A DNA stretch of 64,000 bases from Pullulanibacillus sp. KACC 23026 (GTDB taxonomy: Bacteria; Bacillota; Bacilli; Bacillales; Sporolactobacillaceae): assembly GCF_029094525.1 (NCBI RefSeq), contig NZ_CP119107.1:1612001-1676000 (forward strand), in the 5' to 3' direction. Shown one piece after another: positions 46,353 to 49,036 of this stretch (its first letter is position 1; each line of letters begins with the position of its first letter). Under the pieces are notes generated by a model. It searched no databases and was not told the origin of the DNA. It saw only the letters and a list, made by a program, of their open reading frames with translations. The translations under genes and the position numbers were made by a program.

Positions 46353-46796
46353 ATGAGCTTTTTGGATCAGCTTACCCAAGATATGAAAGAGGCTATGAAA
46401 GCTAAGGATAAAGAACGGTTATCTGTCATCCGGATGCTGAAGGCCTCCCTGCAAAACGAATCGATCAAGCTCGGCAAAGACCTTTCTGAGGATGAGGCCT
46501 TAACTGTCCTTTCACGGGAACTCAAGCAGAGGAACGACTCCCTCCAAGAGTTTGAGCAAGCGGGTCGAGAAGATTTGGCTGAGAAGACTAGAAGTGAAAT
46601 TTTGGTTGTCAAGACTTATTTACCAGAACCATTAACTGATGATCAATTAGAAAACGTGGTTAAGGAAACGATTCAAGAAGTTGGTGCATCATCAAAAGCC
46701 GATATGGGTAAAGTGATGCAAGCCCTTATGCCTAAGGTAAAGGGACGTGCTGACGGAGGAAAAGTTAGCCGCCTCGTTCAAGAACATTTATCTTAA
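46353..46796 (+). CDS. yqeY: GatB/YqeY domain protein
   Basis: A 147-residue protein related to the tRNA-binding tail domain of GatB amidotransferase, with [19 protein letters not shown] and a C-terminal YLPEPL...[17 protein letters not shown] pattern. The exact role is unknown; a tRNA-linked function is inferred from the fold. It follows rpsU by 14 bases and is closed by a terminator. Confidence 0.93.
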
Positions 46797-46812: not shown

Positions 46813-46848
46813 AAAAGCGAAACCTTTTTTTGAGGTTTCGCTTTTTAG
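46813..46848 (+). terminator. Terminator of rpsU-yqeY
   Basis: AAAAGCGAAACCT and AGGTTTCGCTTTT form a perfect 13-bp stem with a T-rich loop and tail. Confidence 0.88.
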
Positions 46849-46897: not shown

Positions 46898-47780
46898 CGT
46901 TCATCGAAGGGATGAACGCCAAAAAGAGTGAGTGTAGCATCCGAAAAGTCGTTCATCGAGGGTATGAACGCCAAAAACAGCGGGTGTAGCATCCGAAAAG
47001 TCGTTCATCGAGGGTATGAACGCCAAAAAGAGCGAGTGCGGCAGTCGAAAGGGCGTTCATCGGGTGTATGAACGCCAAAAAGAGCAAGTGCAGCATCCGA
47101 AAAGGCGTTCATCGAAGGGATGAACGCAAAAATAAGCGAATGGAGCATCCGAAAAGGCGTTCATCAAGTGGATGAACGCCAAAAAGAGCGAGTGCGGCAT
47201 CCGAAAAGGCGTTCATCGGGTGTATGAACGCCAAAAAGAGCAAGTGCAGCATCCGAAAAGTCGTTCATCGAAGGGATGAACGCAAAAATAAGCGAATGGA
47301 GCATCCGAAAAGGCGTTCATCAAAGGTATGAACGCCAAAAACAGCGAGTGGAGCATCCGAAAAGGCGTTCATCGAGGGTATGAACGCCAAAAAGAGTGAG
47401 TGTAGCATCCGAAAAGTCGTTCATCGAGGGTATGAACGCCAAAAAAAGCGGGTGGAGCATCCGAAAAGGCGTTCATTGGATGTATGAACGCCAAAAAAGC
47501 GAGTGGAGCATCCGAAAAGTCGTTCATCGGGTGTATGAACGCCAAAAAGAGCGAGTGGAGCATCCGAAAAGTCGTTCATCGGGTGTATGAACGCCAAAAA
47601 GAGCGAGTGAGGCAGTCGAAAGGGCGTTCATCAAGGGGATGAACGCCAAAAAAAGCGGGTGGAGCATCCGAAAAGTCGTTCATCGGTTGTATGAACGCCA
47701 AAAAAAGCGAGTGGAGCATCCGAAAAGTCGTTCATCGAGGGTATGAACGCCAAAAAAAGCGGGTGGAGCATCCGAAAAGG
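46898..47780 (+). repeat. Array of 17 tandem 52-bp units, each with GTTCAT-N7-ATGAAC
   Basis: I count 17 consecutive units starting at 46898, 46950, 47002, 47054, 47106, 47158, 47210, 47262, 47314, 47366, 47418, 47470, 47521, 47573, 47625, 47677 and 47729. All are 52 bp except the one at 47470 (51 bp). Every unit keeps GTTCAT, seven variable bases, then ATGAAC, followed by CGCCAAAAA (CGCAAAAATA in two), a GAGTG-like block and GCATCCGAAAAG (CAGTCGAAAGG in two). It lies between yqeY and floA. Because 52 is not a multiple of three, frames through it are repeat artefacts. It is not CRISPR: no unique spacers separate the repeats. Confidence 0.96.
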
Positions 47781-47784
47781 CGTT

Positions 47785-47940
47785 CATCCCACGAAAACGC
47801 CTCCACACACGCCACGAATTGGTGTAATGGAGCCTCCATCCCACGAAAACGCCTCCGCACACGCCACGAATTGGTGTAATGGAGCCTCCATTCCACGAAA
47901 AGGCCTCCATCCTACGTCGCGACTATGTGTATTGGGCTCC
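47785..47940 (+). repeat. Second repeat type, three units with the same 52-bp period
   Basis: Directly after the 17-unit array, a different sequence repeats at the same period: units begin CATCCCACGAAAACG at 47785 and 47837, and a degenerate CATTCCACGAAAAGG at 47889. The first two are nearly identical; the third has diverged in its second half. The 18th GTTCAT (47782) runs straight into this repeat. Confidence 0.88.
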
Positions 47941-48052: not shown

Positions 48053-49036
48053 TTGGATCTTAATACTTTGTTGATTTTATTTATTGCGGTAATTGTTATC
48101 GTGGTTATTGCCGTGTTCTTATCATTCGTACCTGTTATGCTGTGGATTTCAGCATTAGCTGCAGGAGTACGAATCGGAATTTTCACATTGGTAGGGATGC
48201 GACTTAGAAGAGTCGTGCCTAGGCGTGTGATCAACCCTTTGATTAAAGCGGTGAAAGCGGGCATTCAGCTCAGCACCAATCAGCTGGAAAGCCATTACCT
48301 TGCAGGGGGGAATGTCGACAGAGTCGTGAATGCTTTAATTGCGGCTCATCGCGCGAACATTGAGCTTAGCTTTGAACGCTGTGCGGCAATCGATCTTGCT
48401 GGCCGAAATGTTTTGGAAGCTGTTCAAATGAGTGTGAATCCAAAAGTGATTGAAACACCGTTTATTTCCGGGGTAGCTATGAACGGGATCGAAGTCAAAG
48501 CGAAGGCGCGAATTACGGTTAGAGCGAATATTGATCGGTTAGTTGGGGGAGCGGGTGAAGAAACAATTATTGCTCGTGTCGGTGAAGGGATTGTCTCAAC
48601 CATTGGATCTTCTGAAAGCCATAATCAAGTGTTAGAAAATCCCGATCTCATCTCTCAGACTGTTTTGAAAAAAGGGCTAGATTCAGGAACCGCCTTTGAA
48701 ATTCTCTCGATTGATATTGCGGATGTCGACATCGGTAAAAATATTGGGGCTCATTTGCAAACCGAACAGGCTGAAGCCGATAAAAAAATAGCTCAGGCCA
48801 AAGCAGAGGAACGCCGCGCTATGGCAGTTGCGACTGAGCAGGAAATGAAGGCTCGGGTACAGGAAATGCGTGCCAAAGTGGTTGAATCAGAAGCTGAAGT
48901 ACCACTTGCGATGGCAAAAGCTCTTCGGGAGGGGAATTTAGGGGTGATGGATTATATGAATTATAACAACATCAAAGCCGATACGGAAATGCGCCGATCA
49001 GTAGGCGATATGAATGATCCTCAAAATGAAGAGTAA
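48053..49036 (+). CDS. floA: Flotillin-like protein FloA
   Basis: A 327-residue membrane scaffold protein (YqfA) that organises fluid-ordered membrane domains. An N-terminal hydrophobic hairpin region (residues 3-35) is followed by a PHB domain and a long Glu/Ala/Lys-rich helical region (about 245-300, [17 protein letters not shown]). Start TTG at 48053 behind GGGGGAAGGA. In B. subtilis it is co-transcribed after yqeZ, an NfeD-type gene; here that place is taken by the 52-bp array. Confidence 0.95.

Follow-up and report, generated by a model that had tools for sequence, protein, structure and literature searches.

RAYTs belong to the Y1 HUH transposases, and a REP is a short palindrome with a tag (PMC3116915, PMC3686654). 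The gene-repeat association described here, which pairs 52-bp tandem repeats with genes for NERD-domain proteins, resembles the REPIN-RAYT arrangement in that palindromic repeats flank a chromosomal nuclease-type gene that does not belong to a classical transposon (PMC3116915, PMC3686654), in that the repeat is also dispersed in intergenic gaps, and in that paralogues have repeat families of their own. It differs in its protein, which is NERD/PD-(D/E)xK-like with a zinc ribbon and without Y1/HUH, and in its repeats, which are long direct tandem 52-mers of fixed period without a GTAG/CGTC-type tag and without the REP-singlet or inverted-pair layout. Since the partner has no Y1/HUH domain, the NERD system is not a member of RAYT/REPIN.

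Type III toxin-antitoxin systems (ToxIN, CptIN, TenpIN) likewise combine a single nuclease gene with an adjacent tandem array of fixed unit; their arrays lie 5' of the toxin gene, give rise to an RNA antitoxin and have no dispersed copies in trans, whereas the NERD arrays are mostly 3' and dispersed, which sets them apart from type III systems. The NERD protein itself has no detectable ToxN-type domain (Pfam recognises NERD only). Tandem parS-like, iteron or centromere arrays are similar in that sites for protein binding, palindromic or direct, recur with helical spacing, but no ParA/ParB-type or initiator partner was found here, the arrays being located beside NERD genes or scattered. CRISPR arrays are also tandem palindromic repeats with variable stretches in between; the present arrays are not CRISPR, as their spacers are a few recurrent, related types common to several arrays, their period is 52 bp and they have a partner other than a Cas protein. 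A search of the open-access PMC literature for 52-bp repeats, or for NERD together with repeats or intergenic sequences, returned nothing relevant, and judged by that literature a NERD gene-array partnership in Bacillus-type bacteria is previously unrecognised.

The array between yqeY and floA

The source genome, Pullulanibacillus sp. KACC 23026 (G000), consists of a single contig of 4.80 Mb, and the window is the 64,000-bp stretch at positions 1,612,001-1,676,000. The features of interest, in window coordinates, are the following:

46353..46796, + strand: yqeY, the upstream flank, located 5' of floA in 11 of the 11 relatives checked
46816..46848, + strand: inverted repeat AAAGCGAAACC..GGTTTCGCTTTTT, a likely yqeY terminator, upstream of the array and outside it
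46898..47788, + strand: family-1 array (TRF period 52, 17.2 copies, 86% matches)
47785..47909, - strand: family-2 array, 2.4 units of 52 bp, reverse complement GTGGAGGCG...GATGGAGGCTCCA...ACAC (TRF and hand alignment of units)
48053..49036, + strand: floA, encoding flotillin-like FloA, the downstream flank (NCBIfam NF010186, E 8.7e-173)

The exact dyad GTTCAT-N7-ATGAAC occurs 17 times in the window, every time within the family-1 array, compared with a mean of 3.6 dyad matches in window shuffles with two mismatches permitted. Its central heptamer is found in eight versions (CGAAGGG, CGAGGGT, CGGGTGT, CAAGTGG, CAAAGGT, TGGATGT, CAAGGGG and CGGTTGT), the dyad is lengthened to GGCGTTCAT/ATGAACGCC in part of the units, and the sole 51-bp step runs from 47471 to 47522. 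TRF and motif counts thereby confirm what the first-pass annotation had described, namely 17 units, an invariant dyad, at least eight heptamers, one 51-bp exception and some longer dyads. No ORF of at least 80 aa passes through the array, which is thus non-coding.

The array is real, and its description had been an understatement, as a partner gene family and a second repeat family had been missed. The family-2 array, of different sequence, abuts the 3' end of the family-1 array in the same gap, and its units are, by hand alignment, degenerate relatives of a 14-copy array located 3' of a NERD gene elsewhere on the chromosome (NERD2). The window family-1 unit is the same unit as that of a 33-copy array 3' of a second such gene (NERD1).

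The conservation between yqeY and floA that had been put forward as a check was not found: none of 11 same-family relatives carries an array there (0/11), the two genes still being neighbours, so that the array was most likely gained in the lineage of the source genome.

Repeat families in the source chromosome and across the order

The whole genome contains 413 exact CGTTCAT-N7-ATGAACG dyads. Nineteen family-1 arrays were located (16 via array ends, one behind a NERD gene and two via a second end-finding pattern). These arrays, plus a single dyad standing alone, comprise 398 of the 413; no family-1 array was located in the first 1.65 Mb of the chromosome. Twenty-one distinct 52-mers are present at two or more loci of the source genome, which indicates that units moved or were converted between loci. 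Family 2 is dispersed as well, in at least 12 clusters, and the clusters examined all have a 52-bp period. A third 52-bp family (TGCCCACCATATT...AATATGGTGGGCA) is found beside a family-2 array at L211 (G000:C1:1315982-1316127) and may be the repeat of either of the two weaker NERD matches in the source genome. A search for a dif site of the B. subtilis type gave no match.

In a first cross-genome search the gap between dyads was left free at 20-50 bp. The matches in named Bacillales genomes (Heyndrickxia, Scopulibacillus, Niallia, Ureibacillus, Lysinibacillus, Robertmurraya, Oceanobacillus and Bacillus pakistanensis) nearly all had a 52-bp period, with unrelated spacers. TTCAT-N7-ATGAA at this period was found in 56 of 397 genomes of the order and in 28 of 136 genera, while the reversed-motif control gave almost no pairs in the 397 genomes. 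Of the 774 steps between the 852 units of 78 arrays, 744 measure exactly 52 bp. Dyad matches outside the Bacillales (Sulfidibacter at 79 bp, two MAGs) look like unrelated satellites, as does a 41-bp repeat of Jeotgalicoccus. Transposase-like ORFs are located between two arrays at L035:2830-4035 (Niallia circulans) and L108:3539-4309 (G261), which looks like the landing of an insertion sequence within an array or in the gap between arrays; the ORFs at L113, L114 and L115 are repeat arrays in translation, and such frames may be annotated as hypothetical proteins.

In the arrays of 25 genomes, information content is 1.67-2.0 bits in the TTCAT and ATGAA columns, where minority bases make up 0-2% within arrays; in the loop and spacer, most columns have 10-28%. 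The column statistics also reveal a G/C pair at +/-4 and flanking A-tracts at fixed places, the loop and spacer being variable. The earlier reading of the window array is in part upheld by these comparisons. Selection on the dyad arms, which it had argued from the single array, is supported, the arms being near-fixed in relatives rather than as variable as the rest of the unit; the array is likewise not an unconserved, recently expanded satellite. The proposal that 52 bp represents five helical turns and brings the dyads onto one DNA face gains strength from the period of 51-53 bp that is kept in arrays with unrelated sequences. The site itself, as stated above, is not conserved, and a transcribed hairpin, discussed below, is not favoured.

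The spacing of five helical turns and the fixed A-tracts would also suit host sites for DNA architecture or regulation, at which NERD arrays anchor, silence or control forks to the gain of the host and without mobilisation. Such a role would agree with the orientation of the family-1 arrays, which are mostly on the leading strand (15 co-oriented and four anti-oriented among 19, p 0.019; dyad arrays of other genomes, 36 co vs 8 anti). This bias stood at 14:2 initially and came down to 15:4 once two missed arrays had been added, and the family-2 arrays listed are all on the + strand, in the same direction on both replichores, without leading-strand bias; replication-strand orientation, weaker at 15:4 and lacking in family 2, was dropped as support. 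As, in addition, the sites are not conserved and the active site of the nuclease is, we regard host sites for architecture or regulation without mobilisation as unlikely.

NERD genes and their adjoining arrays

An all-against-all comparison of ORFs near arrays, using gene calls predicted in this analysis, revealed that arrays in three genera have a NERD-domain protein at a distance of 63-87 bp (Pfam NERD, PF08378, on L037: 67.9 bits, with a gathering cut-off of 22.1). No recurrent Cas-type gene or integrase was found among the ORFs near arrays, and core sites of a tyrosine recombinase, with N7 as the overlap, were set aside because no integrase recurs next to arrays. NERD1 and NERD2 of the source genome are each followed by one of the window's repeat families:

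G000:C1:3394642-3395547: NERD1, followed by 33 units of the window (family-1) repeat
G000:C1:1247898-1248797: NERD2, followed by 14 units of the family-2 repeat

In a sample of 80 genomes, counted as array-positive when they have a TTCAT array, strong NERD matches (E<1e-60) are present in 49 of 52 array-positive vs 8 of 28 array-negative genomes (Fisher p 1e-9), and seven of the latter eight have 52-bp arrays of other sequence at the NERD gene. TTCAT-type 52-bp arrays without NERD were observed in G360, and with weak NERD matches only in G072 and G119; gene loss, another partner or a weakening of the NERD model may apply to these three genomes. Sufficient flank was available for 74 NERD genes; 65 of these have a tandem array of 51-53 bp period directly 3' and three more have one 5', a fraction that refers to NERD genes taken as best matches and holds for close members, of roughly at least 40% identity. 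For four of the six others, autocorrelation is highest at a lag of 51-52 bp. The arrays start from a few to about 200 bp past the NERD stop codon, and many are without TTCAT; of 68 that were analysed, 64 are 3' arrays. The background amounts to four arrays per 163 kb of NERD flanks. In the hold-out genomes G071, G105 and G108, which were found by NERD only, 52-bp arrays are present at all seven genes with adequate flank (7/7). In a phylum-wide sample, the source of these three genomes, the NERD family was found in this order only.

The proteins of this family, of about 300 aa, comprise the NERD domain, a C-x2-C...C-x2-C zinc ribbon and a conserved C-terminus. PD-(D/E)xK-like residues are conserved (E45 in 76/76, D77 in 75/76, E/D90 in 76/76 and K92 in 75/76), and the four cysteines are nearly invariant. 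Pfam NERD was recognised in 34 of 34 aligned partners (E 0.05 or better, best 1e-20) and Y1_Tnp in none of them, while the Pfam matches outside the NERD domain were weak and sub-threshold. The PDB contained no clear relative (one sub-threshold match, to the zinc ribbon), and single-sequence AlphaFold gave a pLDDT of 33. Since NERD domains are known in defence proteins, and weak matches to PglW and MAD6 were obtained, NERD could be imagined to attack DNA while the arrays titrate or tame it, in such a way that loss of an array is harmful or phage DNA is attacked. These matches, however, span the NERD domain alone and are far below curated cut-offs, and searches of plasmids, phages and viral contigs gave no member of the NERD family, which makes defence or addiction rather improbable. 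The family-1 array was not found in phages, plasmids or viral contigs either.

The repeats also vary together with the proteins. Similarity of array consensus follows NERD similarity (Mantel r 0.51, 0/5000 permutations), rising from 0.42 at <40% NERD identity to 0.73 at >80%. Between paralogues of the same genome the arrays are unrelated, with a mean similarity of 0.43 as compared with 0.41 after shuffling; the dyad and the 52-bp period are constant despite unrelated repeat sequences. With the C-terminal 60 residues alone the correlation is 0.504, vs 0.507 with the whole protein, a hint that these residues may set repeat specificity. A neutral satellite, produced by slippage or unequal crossing-over and without any partner, would fit the observations that units of one array are more alike than chance and that higher-order repeats are present; it is nonetheless contradicted by the linkage to NERD genes, the constancy of the period across unrelated repeats and the conservation of the arms, and is very improbable.

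A candidate nuclease-repeat partnership

We lean towards reading the window array as a trans copy of the cognate repeat of NERD1, in a RAYT/REPIN-like nuclease-repeat system built on NERD. The broader proposition, to which we give an even chance, is that NERD-family nucleases, each with its own double-stranded DNA palindrome at five-turn spacing, maintain and spread arrays in Bacillales chromosomes, as a new, non-HUH gene-repeat partnership and an independent counterpart of RAYT/REPIN. Each NERD gene would keep a 'home' array directly behind it, with further copies in intergenic gaps across the chromosome. A NERD dimer would most likely recognise the palindromic dyad in double-stranded DNA, and sites five helical turns apart would align the bound dimers on one face. 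The E...D...E-x-K active site, whose conservation suggests nicking or cutting, might act within or beside the arrays; repair or recombination could then lengthen the arrays and mobilise units by copying them to new intergenic sites, and the host may benefit. It counts against this model that ordinary recombination, too, can spread tandem units at such close spacing. The array boundaries display no clean insertion signature, in a phase analysis biased by spacer variability.

The constant dyad geometry and the five-turn period across unrelated sequences favour a symmetrical, phased protein that recognises double-stranded DNA. The partner of NERD might instead be RNA, transcribed repeat hairpins binding, guiding or inhibiting the protein as ToxI RNA does ToxN. 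Palindromic units adjoining a single nuclease-like gene are in line with such a role, as is the folding of single strands of the window array, which is better than that of shuffles (z -2.5 and -3.6, with DNA parameters). The substitution pattern argues otherwise, as stem mismatches of the G-T and A-C kinds are about equally frequent (71 vs 58 types) and only 27 cells are compensated, so that changes in the stem show no preference for G-U over A-C and seldom have a compensating partner; double-stranded DNA is favoured over an RNA hairpin on these grounds, and the hairpins that the first-pass annotation expected in the case of transcription are not. Within-genome covariation of the outer stem is weak and outer arms are consistently unpaired in some genomes, and a constrained RNA stem was for these reasons rejected as the main reading. 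An RNA partner moreover does not explain why unrelated families share a fixed 52-bp period, and it fits poorly with arrays that lie mostly 3' of the gene and are dispersed in trans. An Rfam scan gave sub-threshold matches only (SpF56, VrrA). We think an RNA partner unlikely.

Under the partnership of NERD nucleases with their own repeats, repeats numbering hundreds in many Bacillales genomes would thereby get a partner, and NERD, a widespread nuclease-like domain whose role in these proteins we found undescribed, would get a likely substrate. The fixed 52-bp period across unrelated repeats allows a direct and cheap test of helical-phase recognition. The system would represent a second, unrelated case of an enzyme and its own repeat population living long-term in bacterial chromosomes, and ideas derived from RAYT/REPIN would become independently testable.
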